DNA from: Flavobacterium fryxellicola | Lineage (GTDB): Bacteria; Bacteroidota; Bacteroidia; Flavobacteriales; Flavobacteriaceae | Reading direction: 5' to 3' | Length of the DNA stretch: 64,000 bases | NCBI RefSeq assembly: GCF_900143245.1 | Contig: NZ_FRDK01000001.1 | Coordinates: 1-64,000, forward strand | Shown here: in pieces, positions 35,471 through 63,886 of the stretch | How positions within the stretch are numbered: position 1 is the first letter of the stretch | How the letters are laid out: each line of letters begins with the position of its first letter | Program-made: the position numbers and the translations under genes | Notes under the pieces: model-generated | Databases searched by the model: none | What the model was told of the DNA's origin: nothing | Seen by the model: the letters and a program-made list of their open reading frames with translations, nothing else

Positions 35471-35578
35471 AGGAGCCATGTGCTTCGCCAGTTCGCTTCG
35501 CTCGTGCCCTGCTATCCGCTACAATCTTTTATTCGCTGAGGCGAATAAAAGGATTTCCTCTGCTATCAGGGCTAGGGA
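35471..35578 (+). repeat. Interspersed stem-loop repeat X, copy 3
   Basis: This spacer element has the same frame as 40662-40751 and 46061-46160 read on the opposite strand: AGGAGC, then CTGCTATCCGCTACAATCTT, a central hairpin, AAAAGGAT and GGGCTAGGG. The central stem here is CTTTTATTCGC paired with GCGAATAAAAG, different in sequence from the other copies. An extra GC-rich segment (35478-35506) is inserted after AGGAGC. It lies between tyrA and the aminotransferase gene. Confidence 0.65.
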
Positions 35579-40661: not shown

Positions 40662-40751
40662 CTAAATCCCTAGCCCAGATGGAAGCGGCATCCTTTTTTG
40701 ATCCGTTTTTCAGGATCAAAAAGATAGAGCGCACAGCTGGAAATAGCTCCT
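40662..40751 (-). repeat. Interspersed stem-loop repeat X, copy 1
   Basis: Read on the minus strand it runs AGGAGCTATTTCCAGCTGTG, CGCTCTATCTTTTT, a hairpin GATCCTGAAAAACGGATC, AAAAAAGGATGCCGCTTCC and GGGCTAGGG. It fills the convergent spacer between gldA and metF and starts within the metF TAG stop codon (40752-40750). Copies at 35471 and 46061 share the frame but not the central stem sequence. Confidence 0.7.
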
Positions 40752-45982: not shown

Positions 45983-46254
45983 AACTTGTATTATTTACCT
46001 CAGTTTGCGGTGAGATTTATTCTTTTGATTAATAATTACAAAAGTTCTCATATAGCAGCTCTTTAGCCCCGATTGCAGCGATATCCTTTTTTTATAAACC
46101 CTTTCAGGGTTTTAAACCCTGAAAGGGTTTATAAAAAAAGATATAGCGTAAAGCGGGAAAATCATCGGCAAAAAAGGCCTGATAATTCGCTCTAAAAATA
46201 ATATCGATAGGTTGTCAAGAAAAGGTTTGAGAAATACTGTGGCAGTATTCTTGT
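45983..46254 (-). other. Leader between the SAM-I aptamer and metH
   Basis: About 270 nt. It includes a short hairpin just after the aptamer (46233-46239 with 46243-46249, no strong T run) and repeat X copy 2. No canonical terminator or Phe/Met-type leader ORF was identified, so the expression platform is unclear. Confidence 0.5.
46061..46160 (-). repeat. Interspersed stem-loop repeat X, copy 2, in the metH leader
   Basis: Plus strand frame: TTTAGCCCCGATTGCAGCGA, TATCC, a large palindrome (46087-46139) and AAGATATAGCGTAAAGCGGG. The palindrome is an almost perfect inverted repeat with arms of about 26 bp built on TATAAACCCTTTCAGGG. It sits between the riboswitch and the start codon, so it will be part of the metH leader RNA. 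Confidence 0.7.
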
Positions 46255-46371
46255 GTTATCTATCTTATAGTTCTGAAATAAAATCAGAATAAAGTAGAAT
46301 GTAGCACCTTCTTTAAAGATAAAGGGTTGCTAAGGTTTCATCGGGTCTTTCCCTCCGCCTTTCGTGATAAC
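46255..46371 (-). ncRNA. SAM-I (S-box) riboswitch upstream of metH
   Basis: On the minus strand P1 is GTTATC (46371-46366) paired with GATAAC (46260-46255). Inside it are the S-box signatures GAAAGGCGGAGGGAAAGACC, CGATGAAACCTTAGCAACC and AAGGTGCTACATTC. These are the SAM-binding core, kink-turn and pseudoknot regions of the class. It is expected to switch the metH1-metH2-metF unit off when SAM is abundant. The expression platform is not obvious. Confidence 0.93.
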
Positions 46372-46405
46372 TTGCAATAAATATAGGAACAGTGCAAAGT
46401 AAAGA

Positions 46406-57694: not shown

Positions 57695-57720
57695 ACCCTT
57701 CGGGGGTAAGGGGGCTTTTA
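57695..57720. repeat. GC-rich palindromic repeat P next to the thrA stop
   Basis: CACCCTTCGGGGGTAAGGGG followed by GCTTTTA. It starts with the thrA TAA stop codon on the minus strand and matches the copies at 42411 and 51347. Confidence 0.65.
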
Positions 57721-60132
57721 CCCTTTATCAGACAATCTCAAAATATCTCCAAAAACGCCTCTTGCTGTTACTGCGGATCCTGCGCCTGCGCCTTGAATTA
57801 CAATTGGTCGGTCTCCGTACGATTCTGTGTAAATTTCGAAGAAAGAATCAGAACCTTTCAATCCGCCTAACGCCGTATCTGATGGCACAGAAACTAATTT
57901 CACTTCTAGATTTCCTTTGTCGTTTTGTAAATCACCTGACAATTCACCAATGTATCGCAAGACGTGATTTGGTTTTTGATCTGCTTTTATTTTGGCATAA
58001 ATGGAATCAAATTCCGTCAATTTATTTAGAAAATCCGAAACTTCTCCTTCACGTAAATGTTCAGGTATCAAATTTTGAATGTCAATTTCTTCAAATTCAT
58101 TTTGCAAGTCTAATTCCCGGGCTAGAATCAATAATTTCCGACCCACATCATTCCCACACAAATCTTCTCTTGGGTCTGGTTCGGTGTAACCGTTGTCGAT
58201 TGCTTCTTTCAATATTTCACTAAATGGGGCATCCTTAGCAGAGAAATTATTAAATAAATAACTCAAAGTTCCGGAGAAAACGCCTTTAATTTTTGTAATG
58301 TTTTCACCTGAAAGGTGCAACAATTTGATGGTGTCAATCAACGGTAAACCTGCTCCAACATTCGTTTCATAAAGATAACTTTTTTGATTGTCAGTAAGGA
58401 CTTTTCGCAATTTTTTATAAAAATTATAACTCAACGTATTGGCTACTTTATTGGATGAAATCAAATCAAAACTACTTTCTATCAAAGTACTATAATTTTC
58501 AACAAATTCAGTACTTGCCGTATTGTCGATTGCAATCAAATTCTCCAGATGATGCTCATTTGCGTAAGCAATCACATCCTTTATTGTATAGGAAAAACCG
58601 TTATTTTGAATTTCATTTTTCCAATTTGGCGTAACACCATTTTTGTTTAAAAGCACGTTACTTGAATTGGCAATAGCAAAAACATTCAACTTAATGCCTT
58701 TTCGTTTTTCGATAGCTGCTGCCGATTCTAATATTTGATTGATCAACGTACCTCCTACTAACCCATGACCAAAAATAGCAATATTGATTTTCTTTGAAAC
58801 TCCAAAAATTTCTCCATGAATCACGTTTAAGGCTTTGTTCAGTTGTGATTTTTTAACAACCAAACTCACGTTTTTACCCGTAACCGTATTATTGAAAAGT
58901 ATAGGGACTATTTTATTTTTTATCAAGGCAGTGTAGGGTTTGTGAAACGTGCTCAAATCCTGGCCAATAATAGAAATAACCGAAACATCATCCGTCACCG
59001 TGATTTTATTCACATCCTTAGAATAGAAATCGTTTTCAAATTCTTTTTCTAATTCAATCATGGCTGTGGTTGCTTTGTCAGCGGCAACTACTAAACCAAT
59101 TCCGCGCTCTGAAGAACCTTGCGAAATGATACTAACGCTAATATCATTGTCGCCCATCACTCTAAAAATACGGGCATCAACACCGGTTTTACCCAGTAAA
59201 CCTCTGCCTTCCAAGTTTACTAATGCCACGTTTTCTAAAACCGAAAGTGTTTTAATTCCTTCTTTATTATTGTTGGAAGTGATTAATGTTCCCTTGTTCT
59301 CATGGTTGAACGTATTTAAAATGCGAAGCGGGATGTTTTTTTCTAGAAGTGGAATAATCGTTTTTGCATGCAGAATGGTTGCACCAAAAGTGGCAATTTC
59401 ATTCGCTTCATTAAAAGACAAATGATCGATTTTCTTGGCATCAAGAACTAAATCAGGGTTGGCCGTGTAAATGCCGTCAACATGTGTATAATTTTGCAAT
59501 TCATCTGCATTTAGATAATTTGCAATTAAGGAAGCGGTATAATTACTTCCATTTCTTCCAAGAGTAGTCGCATCATTATTGGTATTTGACCCAATAAACC
59601 CCGTAATGATATTGACCGTCGTACCGTTATTTTGTTTGAAATACCCAATCACATTTTTCTTTGAAAGTTGTTCTAAAGGTTGTGCATTTCCAAATTTTGA
59701 ATCGGTCTTTATTAATTCTCTACTATCTGCAAAGCGAGCATTTATTCCTTTTTTAACTAAAATAGCTGTTAGCAATTTAGCCGAAAGCAATTCTCCTTTT
59801 GATACTACTTGGTCTTTTATTTTGTTACTGTAGTCGCCAGTTAGACTAACGCCTTCAAATAATTTTTCTAAAATATTGAATTCTTCAGACAAATCGACAT
59901 CCTCATATTCCGCTTGTTGGTATTTTTTGAAGTCTTCAAAAAGCGACTTGTAATTTATATTTTTTGAGGCTGTACTTAAAATCTCTTCGAGTTCATCTGT
60001 GGCGTTTCCTCTTGCTGAAACCACAATTGCTATTTCTTCTCCTTGATCTACTTTACCGGTAATAATAGCAACGACTTTATTTAATCCGTCTCCATTCGAC
60101 AAAGATTTACCCCCAAATTTTAATATTTTCAT
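57718..60132 (-). CDS. thrA: Bifunctional aspartate kinase / homoserine dehydrogenase
   Basis: An 804-residue fusion. The aspartokinase (about 1-285) begins MKILKFGGKSLSNGDGL and contains GFIGSNTNNDATTLGRNGSNY. Two ACT modules (about 300-440, LEGRGLLGKTGVDARIFRVM) give feedback control. The homoserine dehydrogenase (about 455-804) has the NAD-binding IAIFGHGLVGGTLINQI and the catalytic block GVFSGTLSYLFNNF, with TEPDPREDLCGNDVGRKLLIL. It supplies homoserine for MetX, encoded 19 bp upstream. Its place in a met operon resembles MetL in function. Confidence 0.95.
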   Translation of the reverse strand: MKILKFGGKSLSNGDGLNKVVAIITGKVDQGEEIAIVVSARGNATDELEEILSTASKNINYKSLFEDFKKYQQAEYEDVDLSEEFNILEKLFEGVSLTGDYSNKIKDQVVSKGELLSAKLLTAILVKKGINARFADSRELIKTDSKFGNAQPLEQLSKKNVIGYFKQNNGTTVNIITGFIGSNTNNDATTLGRNGSNYTASLIANYLNADELQNYTHVDGIYTANPDLVLDAKKIDHLSFNEANEIATFGATILHAKTIIPLLEKNIPLRILNTFNHENKGTLITSNNNKEGIKTLSVLENVALVNLEGRGLLGKTGVDARIFRVMGDNDISVSIISQGSSERGIGLVVAADKATTAMIELEKEFENDFYSKDVNKITVTDDVSVISIIGQDLSTFHKPYTALIKNKIVPILFNNTVTGKNVSLVVKKSQLNKALNVIHGEIFGVSKKINIAIFGHGLVGGTLINQILESAAAIEKRKGIKLNVFAIANSSNVLLNKNGVTPNWKNEIQNNGFSYTIKDVIAYANEHHLENLIAIDNTASTEFVENYSTLIESSFDLISSNKVANTLSYNFYKKLRKVLTDNQKSYLYETNVGAGLPLIDTIKLLHLSGENITKIKGVFSGTLSYLFNNFSAKDAPFSEILKEAIDNGYTEPDPREDLCGNDVGRKLLILARELDLQNEFEEIDIQNLIPEHLREGEVSDFLNKLTEFDSIYAKIKADQKPNHVLRYIGELSGDLQNDKGNLEVKLVSVPSDTALGGLKGSDSFFEIYTESYGDRPIVIQGAGAGSAVTARGVFGDILRLSDKG

Positions 60133-60151: not shown

Positions 60152-61120
60152 TTAGAATATATCCTTCAGCAAATTGTCTAATTGTTTGTATTCTATCAAA
60201 AAAGCATCGTGTCCATGAATAGAGACAATTTCTTGGTAAGTGACTTTATTTTTGAGTTTTTTTAATTGCTCGTAAGTGGCTTCATTTTCACTTGCTGTAA
60301 AAAACAAGTCTGAATTTATTCCTATAATATGAATATCGGCTTCGATTTTTGCCGCTAAAGCGTCAAATGAGTTACTGTTTCTAGTAATATCTATTGTCTT
60401 CAACAACTGATTCATCATTTTGTAAGACGAAAGCTGAAAGCGTTTCTGCAATTTTTTCCCATGATGTAGCAACCAGCTTTCTACATTAAAAATAGCCAAT
60501 TCCTGATGCGTACTTCTCTGGAATTTAGCAGCAAATGATTCGGGAGTTCGGTAACACAGCATCGCGTGAATTCGAGCATCTTCGATAGGTCGTGAAGAGT
60601 TGTGTAAAATTTGCTCTTGTAAAAAGCAATTAGCAATCAACCAATCCGTTGCTTTCCAATCTGTTGCAATGGCAATTAAATGTTGAGTGATTTTTGGTTC
60701 CAAGGCTGTCATTTCCCAAGCAATTCCGCCACCAACTGAGCCCCCAATAATAGCGTACAGCTGTTTGATTTTAAGAAATTGAATACCTTCAATAAAAATT
60801 CTGGCAATATCTCTGGCATTAAAATTTAAGTGTTTTTCAATAACACAACCATCGAAACCATTTCCAGGAATGTTAAATGCAAGGACCGTGTAGTCAGCCG
60901 TGTTTATTGTTTTGTTTTCTCCAATTAAATCATTCCACCAACCATTCTCCCCAATTACTTGAGAATTTCCTGTTAAAGCATGATTGACCAAAACTAGCGG
61001 AGCGGTATGCAAAGCTCGTCCAAAAACTTGAAAACTTAAGTTTAGGGAAGCATAAAAAGCGCCACTTTCGGTGGTGAAATTTTGTATGGTAATTGATGTT
61101 GGTTTATTTTCCAATTTCAA
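60152..61120 (-). CDS. metX: Homoserine O-acetyltransferase-like alpha/beta hydrolase
   Basis: A 322-residue alpha/beta-hydrolase acyltransferase of the MetX family that activates homoserine. NHALTGNSQVIG is the oxyanion-hole block, AIIGGSVGGGIAWEM contains the nucleophile Ser128, GINSDLFF precedes the catalytic Asp, and HGHDAFLIEY near the C-terminus has the catalytic His. No ATG occurs upstream or within the first 150 codons; the start is TTG at 61120, or TTG at 61114 which would give MENKPTSI. The SAM-I riboswitch ends 75 nt upstream. It is followed by thrA, OsmC and the metZ-like gene. Confidence 0.9.
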   Translation of the reverse strand: MKLENKPTSITIQNFTTESGAFYASLNLSFQVFGRALHTAPLVLVNHALTGNSQVIGENGWWNDLIGENKTINTADYTVLAFNIPGNGFDGCVIEKHLNFNARDIARIFIEGIQFLKIKQLYAIIGGSVGGGIAWEMTALEPKITQHLIAIATDWKATDWLIANCFLQEQILHNSSRPIEDARIHAMLCYRTPESFAAKFQRSTHQELAIFNVESWLLHHGKKLQKRFQLSSYKMMNQLLKTIDITRNSNSFDALAAKIEADIHIIGINSDLFFTASENEATYEQLKKLKNKVTYQEIVSIHGHDAFLIEYKQLDNLLKDIF

Positions 61121-61194
61121 ATCTTTTATGATTTTTGATCTGTGTCTGGAAATATTAGAAAGAAAGCTAGGCGATATCTAGACAAATTCTTAGT

Positions 61195-61298
61195 GTTATC
61201 TTCCCACGATGAGCGTGGTAGAATGCAGCACCTTCTTCGATAAATCGAAGGGTTGCTAAGGCTTCATCGGGTCTAATCCCTCTGCCTTTCTTTATAAC
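61195..61298 (-). ncRNA. SAM-I (S-box) riboswitch upstream of metX
   Basis: On the minus strand P1 pairs GTTAT (61298-61294) with ATAAC (61199-61195). The core is AAAGAAAGGCAGAGGGATTA, GACCCGATGAAGCCTTAGC, AACCCTTCG and AAGGTGCTGCATTC, matching the S-box class. A fourth helix CCACGCTCATCGTGG closes before P1. It should repress metX-thrA-osmC-metZ when SAM is high. No strong terminator follows before the TTG start, so regulation may act on translation start or by another mechanism. Confidence 0.93.
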
Positions 61299-61327
61299 AT
61301 TTCAATACGTTTATGAACTTATAAATG

Positions 61328-61533: not shown

Positions 61534-61743
61534 TTAAATAAAAAGCGCCTCATTCTCTTGTGAATACATTAGAAAAAGCAGTGAGTTGGGCACGGACTTT
61601 TGCGCCAGAGGATCGTTCTTTGAAATTTCAAATCTAGGATGAATCAATTCGTTTTTAGAAAGGTTCTCCTTCTTTTTTTTACCCCTTATGTCAATCCTTT
61701 TTAATAATTCAAAAGTTTTCGGAAAATACTTAGTTGTACTCAT
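61534..61743 (-). CDS. Short hypothetical ORF, possibly a gene remnant
   Basis: A 69-codon frame starting MSTTKYFPKTFELLKRIDIRG. Its ATG is preceded by CTAACACCTAAAATT, similar to the sequence before metY (which also starts MST-K). It has no recognised domain, and a lysine-rich stretch followed by low-information sequence makes a degenerate 5' fragment of a lost gene likely. A terminator and a 29-codon Met-containing ORF lie just upstream on the same strand. Confidence 0.25.
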   Translation of the reverse strand: MSTTKYFPKTFELLKRIDIRGKKKKENLSKNELIHPRFEISKNDPLAQKSVPNSLLFLMYSQENEALFI

Positions 61744-61811: not shown

Positions 61812-61847
61812 AAAAAACCCTTTTAGATCCATATCCAAAAGGGTTTT
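61812..61847. terminator. Terminator after the 29-codon ORF
   Basis: An 11-bp inverted repeat AAAACCCTTTT (61814-61824) with AAAAGGGTTTT (61837-61847), flanked by A and T runs. On the minus strand, TCCAAAAG just after the small ORF stop (61876-61869) is complementary to CTTTTGGA in the terminator arm (61841-61834), so an antiterminator form is possible. Confidence 0.75.
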
Positions 61848-61877
61848 AAGTTGTGTTATAAACTTATACTTTTGGAA

Positions 61878-61967
61878 TCAACACACATAAAGAAACAGCA
61901 TAGCTTGGACCATTTTCATCTTATTGACTGTCAATTTATTTGCATGCTGAAATTTCAACTTGTTCAT
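61878..61967 (-). CDS. Possible 29-residue leader peptide ORF
   Basis: A short ORF starting MNKLKFQHANKL, with KMKMVQAMLF (three Met codons in seven) before the TGA at 61878. It is preceded by AGTATAA and followed at 31 nt by a terminator that could be opened by pairing with sequence directly after the stop codon. The layout is that of an attenuator, but the gene it would control (61534-61743) looks decayed. Confidence 0.3.
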   Translation of the reverse strand: MNKLKFQHANKLTVNKMKMVQAMLFLYVC

Positions 61968-62006: not shown

Positions 62007-62041
62007 CAAAAAAAAAGCTTCCCGTTATCTGGGAAGCTTTT
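62007..62041. terminator. Terminator after the 22-codon ORF
   Basis: A perfect 11-bp inverted repeat AAAAGCTTCCC (62013-62023) with GGGAAGCTTTT (62031-62041), 7-nt loop, followed on the minus strand by nine T residues. Confidence 0.85.
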
Positions 62042-62063
62042 GCTATATAATTTGATTTAAAAA

Positions 62064-62132
62064 TTATGCAATAAGCGACCCATAGGAGTTATCCTTTGCG
62101 ACTTTGAACGTATTACAAATATCAAATCTCAT
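62064..62132 (-). CDS. Possible 22-residue small ORF or leader
   Basis: MRFDICNTFKVAK... ending SLIA and TAA, 23 codons including stop. A possible promoter (TTTG, 20 nt, CATATTTG) lies upstream and a strong terminator 23 nt downstream. GCTTATTGC at its 3' end can pair, with one bulged A, to GCAAAAGC at the base of that terminator. No residue is clearly over-represented, so the controlling amino acid, if any, is unclear. It may also simply be a short RNA downstream of metY. Confidence 0.3.
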   Translation of the reverse strand: MRFDICNTFKVAKDNSYGSLIA

Positions 62133-62256: not shown

Positions 62257-63549
62257 TTAAGCCAATTGTCCTTTTTTTATACTTTCAAAAACGACTCTTA
62301 AATCTGTTTTCAAATCTTCAACATCCTCTAAACCAACAGAGAGTCTGATTAAATCTTTAGAAACTCCTGTTGCAATTTGCTCTTCTGCGGATAATTGCTG
62401 ATGCGTGGTGCTAGCTGGATGAATAATCAATGATTTAGTATCTCCAATGTTGGCCAAAAGCGAGAACAGCTTGGTTTCATCGGCTACTTTTTTAGCAGCT
62501 TCAAATCCTCCATGCAAACCAAAAGTCACTATGCCACTTTGTCCTTTTGGCAAATAACGCTGACCTAAAGCATAATATTTATTGGATATCAATCCTGGAT
62601 AATTTACCCATGCAACCTCTTCCTGACTTTCTAACCACTGTGCTAAAGCCAAAGCATTTTCACTATGTCTTTGAATTCGGATTGGTAACGTTTCTAATCC
62701 TTGAATGATTTGGAATGCATTAAACGGACTCAAAGCAGCGCCATAATCACGCAATCCTTCAATACGAACTTTAGCAATAAATGCGGCATTTCCTAGGGCT
62801 TCATGATATACCAATCCATGATATCCGGCAGAGGGTTCTGTGAATTCCGGAAATTTCCCATTGGTCCAATCAAAATTTCCTGCATCAATGACCACTCCTC
62901 CAAGCGAAGTTCCGTTTCCAGTAATGTATTTTGTCAGAGAATGAATAACAATATCAGCTCCGTATTGGATGGGATTTAATAAGTATGGAGAAGCAACGGT
63001 ATTATCTACAATAAATGGCACTTTGGCTGCTTGGGCCTCAACCGAAATAGCTTTCAAATCCAAAACATCCAATTTTGGATTTCCCAAAGATTCCACAAAA
63101 ATTGCTCTGGTATTTTCTTGAACAGCATTTTTAAAATTAGCTGGATCAGATGGATCAACAAATGTGGTGGTAATGCCTAATCTAGGCAACGTAACTTTTA
63201 ATAAATTATAGGTGCCGCCATACAAACTATTTGAAGCTACGATGTGATCTCCAGCTTTTAACAGTACTAATAATGTAGTGGAAATGGCTGCAGTTCCAGA
63301 GGCCGTTACCACTGCACCAATTCCACCTTCTAGGATGGCTAAGCGCTGTTCCAGAATATCATTTGTAGGATTGTTTAATCTTGTGTAAATAAATCCGGGC
63401 TCCGCAAGACCAAAAAGATTAGCGGCATGATCCGAATTATTAAAAACATAAGAGCTTGTTTGATAGATAGGAACAGCTCTGGTTCCTGCGTTTTTTGATA
63501 CATCGTGACCTGCATGCAATGCGTTTGTTTCAAATTTTTGTGTGCTCAT
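62257..63549 (-). CDS. metY: O-acetylhomoserine aminocarboxypropyltransferase (sulfhydrylase)
   Basis: A 430-residue PLP enzyme that makes homocysteine directly from O-acetylhomoserine and sulfide. FETNALHAGHDVSKNAGTRAVPIYQTSSYVF is the conserved N-terminal region (first part FETNALHAGHD). The PLP Lys207 is in IHSLTKYITGNGTSLGG; the GNG after the lysine and the length of 430 distinguish MetY from shorter cystathionine enzymes. LANIGDTKSLIIHPASTTH lies near the C-terminus. It connects the sulfide from the cys genes with the MetX product. A Met-type leader peptide and attenuator lie upstream. Confidence 0.94.
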   Translation of the reverse strand: MSTQKFETNALHAGHDVSKNAGTRAVPIYQTSSYVFNNSDHAANLFGLAEPGFIYTRLNNPTNDILEQRLAILEGGIGAVVTASGTAAISTTLLVLLKAGDHIVASNSLYGGTYNLLKVTLPRLGITTTFVDPSDPANFKNAVQENTRAIFVESLGNPKLDVLDLKAISVEAQAAKVPFIVDNTVASPYLLNPIQYGADIVIHSLTKYITGNGTSLGGVVIDAGNFDWTNGKFPEFTEPSAGYHGLVYHEALGNAAFIAKVRIEGLRDYGAALSPFNAFQIIQGLETLPIRIQRHSENALALAQWLESQEEVAWVNYPGLISNKYYALGQRYLPKGQSGIVTFGLHGGFEAAKKVADETKLFSLLANIGDTKSLIIHPASTTHQQLSAEEQIATGVSKDLIRLSVGLEDVEDLKTDLRVVFESIKKGQLA

Positions 63550-63623: not shown

Positions 63624-63651
63624 AAAAAAACCCCTGCTAGTAGCAGAGGTT
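63624..63651 (-). terminator. Attenuator terminator upstream of metY
   Basis: On the minus strand a 10-bp stem AACCTCTGCT with AGCAGGGGTT (one G-U pair, 3-nt loop) is followed by seven T residues. CTCTGC in the 5' arm (63648-63643) is complementary to GCAGAG in the upstream leader ORF (63700-63695). It lies 75 nt before the metY ATG. Confidence 0.85.
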
Positions 63652-63679
63652 CTCGTTATATATTTTAAAATTTTTAAAA

Positions 63680-63748
63680 CTACACAACAGTAAACTCTGC
63701 GGACTTTTCCGGCATCATAAAACACATATTGATAGTACTTAAGGTCAT
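63680..63748 (-). CDS. Met-containing leader peptide of metY
   Basis: A 22-residue ORF starting MTLSTINMCFMMPEK, with Met codons at 8, 11 and 12 next to Cys9, and a TAG stop at 63680. Codons 17-18 (GCA GAG) are complementary to the 5' arm of the terminator that follows 29 nt after the stop codon. A ribosome stalled at codons 11-12 would leave GCAGAG free to open the terminator; a ribosome that reads to the stop would cover it. The design is that of classical amino-acid attenuation responding to methionyl- (or cysteinyl-) tRNA. Sequence and pairing are seen; mechanism is inferred. Confidence 0.75.
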   Translation of the reverse strand: MTLSTINMCFMMPEKSAEFTVV

Positions 63749-63886
63749 TTTTTTCTTTTTAGTGAAACAAATTTGCAAACTATTTTTGAATCTACCAAAT
63801 AAAAATCAATATAAATTGTATTTCCTATGGATTAACTAGGATAATTTAAAATACAATTCATTCGCTTAAAAAAAACAAAAGATTAA

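Follow-up and report, generated by a model that had tools for sequence, protein, structure and literature searches.

What controls metY at this locus? In the 64,000-nucleotide stretch of DNA analysed here (the window), metY is preceded by a short open reading frame rich in methionine codons and by an intrinsic terminator. Methionine control is usually taught in terms of repressors, SAM riboswitches and T-boxes, and leader-peptide attenuation is classic for tryptophan, histidine, threonine, phenylalanine and the branched-chain amino acids. Comparison with related genomes indicated that the metY leader is very probably a ribosome-mediated transcription attenuator, which would respond to a lack of methionyl-tRNA, and perhaps of cysteinyl-tRNA, by turning metY on. 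If this is real, methionine joins the amino acids sensed by a translating ribosome.

The metY leader in the window

The gene under putative control, metY (62257..63549, (-)), codes for an O-acetylhomoserine sulfhydrylase of 430 aa, identified by TIGR01326 (635 bits against a cut-off of 495) and PF01053. The leader ORF lies at 63680..63748 (-) and encodes MTLSTINMCFMMPEKSAEFTVV* in 22 codons, with Met 8, 11 and 12 and Cys 9 as the candidate control codons. The initial annotation had described this 22-residue ORF, with its three methionines, ahead of a terminator and metY, and both its coordinates and the Met positions proved correct. The leader was matched with an E value of 1e-16 by the class A model R1, the window being among the 28 training sequences of that model.

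Four segments can be assigned in the leader. The predicted protector hairpin (1:2; 63700..63711, (-)) would pair CGGA (63711-63708) with UCCG (63703-63700) and is supported by covariation in relatives; in the window it comprises only 4 bp, lies one register off the consensus and has a model probability of 0.38. Segment 2, GCAGAGUUU (63692..63700, (-)), is the putative antiterminator strand, as indicated by a duplex swap test and by covariation. It contains GCAGAG, leader codons 17-18 (63700-63695), which is the exact complement of CTCTGC in the 5' arm of the terminator; the initial annotation was right on this point, and the predicted duplex extends further, pairing GCAGAGTTT with GAAC(C)TCTGC (GCAGAGUUU with GAAC(C)UCUGC) at -10.5 kcal/mol. 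Terminator scoring and covariation define segment 3, the 5' arm of the terminator (GAGAACCTCTGCT; 63642..63654, (-)), and, together with the sequence itself, segment 4, the 3' arm with its T run (AGCAGGGGTTTTT; 63624..63638, (-)). The resulting intrinsic terminator is a 13-bp hairpin (63654-63626, G-T pairs counted) whose 3' arm enters seven T at 63630-63624. A spacer of 25 nt separates the end of the ORF from the hairpin, and the metY start at 63549 lies beyond.

According to PMC9723704, positions -12 to -5 of Flavobacterium sigma-A promoters are occupied by a -7 box with the consensus TAnnTTTG. A predicted box of this kind, CAAATTTG (63768..63775, (-)), is one base off the motif and gives a predicted start near 63763. 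Of 54 class A loci, 19 have the exact motif no more than 70 nt ahead of the leader start; in control windows the figure was 10 of 224. On this indirect evidence the metY transcript is predicted to begin just before the leader ORF. Taken as a single sequence, the leader has an ordinary fold (z = -1.56, with 12 of 200 shuffles equally stable), so that the weight of the case rests on the relatives.

Class A architecture and the proposed mechanism

The trp, his, thr and ilv attenuators consist of a short ORF with control codons and of four segments, which form a protector (1:2), an antiterminator (2:3) and a terminator (3:4). The metY leader resembles them in its control-codon ORF, four segments, three helices and stall geometry; it differs from them in the use of Met codons (with Cys), in the frequent presence of two units in series and in its interchange with SAM-I.

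A total of 139 ORF-terminator rows was collected and eight were excluded (six divergent, overlapping or unrelated ORFs, one row of locus L126, and locus L090), leaving 54 class A and 77 class B elements. In class A the start codon usually stands 47-54 nt before segment 2 and is followed by the Met codons and by segment 1, AUGAUGUGGAA, beside the last of them. Segment 2, UUCCGCAGAGG, comes next, then the stop codon, an AU-rich spacer and the terminator, with CCUCUGC as segment 3 and GCAGAGG, leading into the T run, as segment 4.

The pairing of segments 2 and 3 was assessed by swapping partners among loci. In 14 genomes of 13 genera, native pairs averaged -11.34 kcal/mol against -8.56 for permuted ones (0/20000 permutations), and in all 51 unique class A elements -10.64 against -9.19 (0/20000). 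The protector behaved likewise, with -6.23 against -4.09 kcal/mol in the 14 genomes and -5.28 against -3.89 in the wider set (0/20000 in both). In the 28-sequence alignment the paired cells amounted to 85.7% for 1:2, 87.4% for 2:3 and 99.1% for 3:4, and sliding the partner by 1-3 columns lowered pairing to 27-64%. In shuffle-based covariation tests, which kinship among the sequences inflates, none of 500 shuffles reached the pairing percentage or the covariation score of any of the three helices; double-change pairs were matched in 6 (1:2), 9 (2:3) and 0 (3:4) shuffles, and the number of pair types in 18, 19 and 10, respectively. Partners of 2:3 change together, from GCAGAG/CUCUGC in the window to GCAAGGGC/GCCCUUGC (L080), GCAGCGG/CCGCUGC (L009) and AAAGGC/GCCUUU (L095), and in the protector a G-C pair is replaced by U-A in 8 of the 28 sequences. 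The alignments show that the predicted helices 1:2, 2:3 and 3:4 of class A are mutually exclusive and covary.

The last Met codon precedes segment 2 by 15 nt in 31 of 54 class A leaders and by 14-18 nt in 52, a spacing consistent with a stalled ribosome. The geometry of ribosome-stalling attenuation suggested in the initial annotation is thus supported by the relatives: Met codons recur at set distances from segment 2, and both the swap test and the alignment counts reveal covariation between segment 2 and the arm of the terminator.

On this basis, with methionine plentiful, the ribosome would run to the stop codon and mask segment 2, the 3:4 terminator would form and metY would remain mostly untranscribed. 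With Met-tRNA scarce, the ribosome would halt at Met 11/12 and mask segment 1, leaving segment 2 exposed; the latter would pair with segment 3 ahead of the synthesis of segment 4, and RNA polymerase would continue into metY. These states were modelled by partition functions, computed for a transcript ending in the loop of the terminator and with assumed edges of the ribosome footprint. The mean 2:3 probability over the 14 genomes was 0.89 with the ribosome at the last Met, 0.04 with the ribosome at the stop codon and 0.50 without ribosome, two of the 14 fitting poorly (L021, with 2:3 at 0.53 when the ribosome is at the stop, and L079, with its stop codon at segment 2). The corresponding values in the window were 0.90, 0.00 and 0.89; the last of these reflects the weak protector and predicts read-through also when the leader is not translated, in contrast to trp. 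The leader, if it works in this way, poses a puzzle: its own start codon requires methionine, and yet it would signal that methionine is scarce. Since scarcity of methionine also limits initiation with fMet, an untranslated window leader would push in the same direction.

Distribution of the leaders and of SAM-I

We searched 149 Flavobacteriaceae genomes for metY, which returned 101 matches, with 99 genomes having a match at E <= 1e-100. The upstream region was read for 99 of the 101 matches, the two omitted being G017, with SAM-I upstream, and a partial match (G037:C30). A SAM-I riboswitch (RF00162) was present upstream on the same strand at 71 of the 99 loci. A leader ORF dense in Met and Cys occurred at 14, in 14 genomes of 13 genera (L003, L004, L005, L009, L012, L021, L024, L025, L048, L074, L079, L080, L095 and L097), all of them among the 28 loci devoid of SAM-I, and no locus clearly had both. 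Leader and SAM-I are alternatives at metY within Flavobacteriaceae.

At least four Met/Cys in 10 residues were found at 14 of the 28 loci lacking SAM-I and at 2 of the 71 SAM-I loci (both more than 430 nt upstream), a contrast whose Fisher values overstate significance because the surveyed genomes are related. The same threshold was passed on the reverse strand at 0/28 and 2/71 loci, and in 20 rounds of shuffling at a mean of 0.7 (maximum 2) and 0.6, respectively; five Met/Cys in 10 residues were found at 12 of 28 versus 0 of 71. Seven of the 14 leader loci have a SAM-I aptamer on the other side of metY, at most about 1.2 kb downstream. If real, the alternation of leader and SAM-I before metY would be a natural exchange, at the same gene and among related genera, between a SAM-sensing RNA and a ribosome sensing Met-tRNA.

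Among the other SAM-I-less loci, metK ends just upstream of metY or overlaps its start region in nine, SAM-II is present in one (L087), and four have none of these features: L015, where the contig ends at a distance of 383 nt, L058, L090 and a distant second copy, L101. At L090 the tail of a weak Met/Cys ORF perhaps pairs with a terminator; this locus may have a divergent leader and was not counted.

Among named metY loci, those of F. sandaracinum and F. xanthum are the closest, at 96% identity, which makes a Flavobacterium origin of the window likely. Models R1 (class A, 28 sequences) and R2 (class B, 20 sequences) were run over 80 named loci, mostly Flavobacterium and including many named strains. 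Before metY, class A was found in 42 (E <= 1e-9) and class B in 72 (E <= 3e-6), with a match in 78 of 80, a count that is not independent since 14 of the 28 R1 and 14 of the 20 R2 training sequences were drawn from these loci. Both classes were present in 36 loci, only A in 6, only B in 36 and neither in 2 (L122 and L133, with short ORFs ending in MCFCC); A stands alone before metY in the window and its near relatives L102, L103 and L105. In the tandem arrangement a second ORF, for instance MKTIAKRNMMCCKMMQMCIPICCCQK, comes after A, and its end pairs with the 5' half of a terminator behind it. It occurs at the 36 named loci and at L004, L005, L009, L012, L048, L074, L095 and L097, with a weaker second hairpin in L024. 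The class B swap test gave -15.15 against -11.59 in 6 genomes (29/20000) and -13.24 against -11.58 in 61 unique elements (0/20000), with the second ORFs of L024, L074 and L095 omitted (terminator row unscored). Column-wise covariation is weak in class B and the alignment counts only partly exceed shuffles, so that this class rests on the swap test. Many named Flavobacterium strains carry leaders, which makes the prediction directly testable.

Class A leaders were also found before SAM-I and metX-thrA (L184), before metX-thrA (L196), before an OsmC-like gene and metX (L212), before a TonB receptor (L214), before cysE and a cysteine synthase (L213, G393) and before metY in another family of the class (L218); the OsmC, TonB, serine acetyltransferase and cysteine synthase names derive from sequence reading. 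Weak R1 matches (E 1e-5 to 1e-2) in the 149 and 295 genomes were discounted, as those printed were mostly ordinary ORF ends with terminators and lacked a Met/Cys leader. At L216 (G339), outside Flavobacteriaceae but within the class, R1 matched a Met/Cys-rich ORF, MCMCCMMHPRMRK, ahead of an apparent aldo/keto reductase.

Outside Flavobacteriaceae, 295 genomes of the class returned 62 metY matches, and 57 upstream regions were read; of the five others, one (G337) was read as L218. A Met/Cys-dense ORF preceded metY at 34 of the 57 loci; the reverse strand gave 5 such loci and shuffled sequences 1.45 on average. With a stricter threshold the three values were 30, 1 and 0.15. A terminator followed the Met/Cys ORF in only 6 of 58 other-family loci (that of L255 being unconvincing), hence most such loci, if functional, work without an intrinsic terminator. 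The nine ORF-terminator pairs at these six loci gave -11.1 native against -8.0 swapped (0/20000). A scan of 40 of the 57 loci placed SAM-I before metY on the same strand at 16 of 27 loci counted as leader-bearing and at 3 of the remaining 13, which include L255, itself above the Cys/Met threshold. Loci with both (16/27) rule out mutual exclusion as a general rule, and the exchange with SAM-I is therefore a pattern of Flavobacteriaceae. At L270, L271, L277 and other loci outside this family, SAM-I is followed by a Cys-run ORF just before metY, with no intrinsic terminator, an arrangement that is possibly a double sensor of SAM and cysteine.

The sensed signal, related systems and the neighbouring genes

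The same attenuator might take cysteine, or both sulfur amino acids, as its main signal, with class A responding mostly to Met and class B mostly to Cys; we consider this unlikely. Class B leaders contain 19% Cys and 20% Met compared with 9.5% and 16% in class A, many other-family ORFs before metY terminate in Cys runs, and L213 places a class A leader ahead of cysteine genes. The codons at stalling distance speak for methionine. In 36 class A leaders the reading frame runs in register with segment 2; Met is found there at position -15 in 31, -18 in 32 and -27 in 30, whereas Cys is found at -15 in 3 and at -18 in 0, being placed at -21 and at -24 in 19 leaders each. The window leader has three Met and one Cys, and the product of metY, homocysteine, is a precursor of methionine.

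A riboswitch or other ligand-binding structured RNA, with the leader ORF incidental, would be plausible at a position that SAM-I itself occupies in 71 of 99 loci, but is very improbable. The Rfam scan of the window, T-box and Bacteroid-trp (RF01692) included, gave five matches over the gathering score and none at the metY leader; SAM-I was found in the window only at 61193-61300 and 46262-46373, and not at that leader. Moreover, the most conserved class A columns outside the three helices are the AUGAUG codons, which belong to a reading frame with an ATG start and a stop codon shortly behind segment 2, and the spacer between the segments varies freely in sequence and length.

We give even less credence to an arrest peptide, in which the nascent chain would sense a ligand in the ribosome tunnel. 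Ligand-sensing examples such as TnaC exist; the metY leader peptides, however, diverge freely apart from Met and Cys, and one-base frame changes (L162, L166, L170 and L175) turn the peptide end from SAE to PQR and leave the terminator, the GCAGAG segment and the Met codons intact. Finally, a plain terminator with a chance ORF, for which the ordinary single-sequence fold and the commonness of short ORFs could be quoted, is hardly credible in view of the reverse-strand and shuffle controls, the covariation, the fixed Met spacing and the divergent orientation of the upstream neighbour metK, which leaves no co-directional gene for a terminator to end.

The proposed ribosome-mediated attenuation at Met codons was compared with described systems. 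The Bacteroid-trp leaders, with their Trp codons, and the 5' regions of F. psychrophilum are similar to the metY leader: they come from the same phylum or family, they precede amino-acid operons, and leader-peptide attenuation is suspected for them. Bacteroid-trp (RF01692) is named in the accessible part of PMC2864571, and in F. psychrophilum the conserved elements include pheA and hisG, according to PMC9723704, whose main text, its supplementary list aside, names no methionine gene ('methion' is absent). The general principle of amino-acid leader-peptide attenuation is set out in PMC1183508, as far as its accessible part goes. In Mycobacterium, the accessible text of PMC1262725 describes Cys-run ORFs before sulfur genes, with no terminator, and its conclusion places methionine under riboswitches. 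Such ORFs resemble many metY loci outside Flavobacteriaceae; they differ from the window leader in preceding cys operons, in belonging to another phylum, in having no Met codons reported in that text and in lacking the intrinsic terminator that the window possesses. Among the closest literature is also the 5'UTR of Xanthomonas met (PMC6230763, accessible part), where SAM-I is described as responding to uncharged initiator tRNA as well (PMC7270179, accessible part). Methionine genes would be sensed there too at the levels of SAM and Met-tRNA; in Xanthomonas, however, the RNA itself binds tRNA, while the metY leader is predicted to be read by a translating ribosome. The attenuators of Salmonella mgtCBR respond to other signals. 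They are tandem, with two short ORFs in one leader (PMC3641672, accessible part), and differ in the genes concerned and in that the metY tandem provides each ORF with its own terminator.

A search of open-access PMC titles and the starts of abstracts found no leader-peptide attenuator for methionine, nor one for Met/Cys replacing SAM-I. Leader-peptide attenuation is already known; the Met/Cys specificity, the frequent tandem and the exchange with SAM-I provisionally appear new. More tentatively, Bacteroidota may harbour a widespread, undescribed family of Met/Cys leader-peptide attenuators for homocysteine synthesis, single or serial (Met, then Met and Cys), which would swap with SAM-I in Flavobacteriaceae and be combined with it in other families of the class. 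One cluster might then read methionine both as charged tRNA and as SAM, and the window type might also be on upon failure of fMet initiation.

Further elements lie between metY and metX in the window. Element A' (62013..62132, (-)) is a second, diverged class A element with the ORF MRFDICNTFKVAKDNSYGSLIA, which was matched by R1 at 62013-62120 (E 5e-8) and keeps the architecture despite the loss of internal Met codons. Element B' (61814..61967, (-)), a second class B element with the ORF MNKLKFQHANKLTVNKMKMVQAMLFLYVC, was matched by R2 at 61814-61901 (E 1e-6) and retains three Met. Behind them lies a 69-aa ORF of no known family (61534..61743, (-)), conserved in Flavobacterium with a C-terminus like SLLFLMYSKENETLFI, and the A'/B' pair recurs with this ORF in many named Flavobacterium loci. 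The attenuator reading of the initial annotation is supported by the relatives, and to it are added the 1:2 protector, the tandem attenuators, the Cys codons, the SAM-I exchange and A'/B', none of which it had mentioned.

The cluster continues with a SAM-I aptamer (61193..61300, (-); RF00162, 77.1 bits), a metX-like gene (60152..61120, (-)) whose best matches are MetX, under the curated cut-offs, and a thrA-like gene for a bifunctional aspartate kinase/homoserine dehydrogenase (57718..60132, (-); NF006959 over cut-off). On the other side, a SAM-II riboswitch at contig positions 63924-64027 (+) (L003:3165-3268) crosses the window end ahead of the divergent metK, and the metY region holds three sulfur-related types of RNA control within about 3 kb. 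The SAM-I at 46262-46373 (-) precedes two ORFs (333 and 897 aa, named from sequence reading) that appear to be the parts of a split methionine synthase, and Flavo-1 RNAs (RF01705) are present in the window at 40668-40747 (+), 46061-46164 (+) and 35501-35577 (-).
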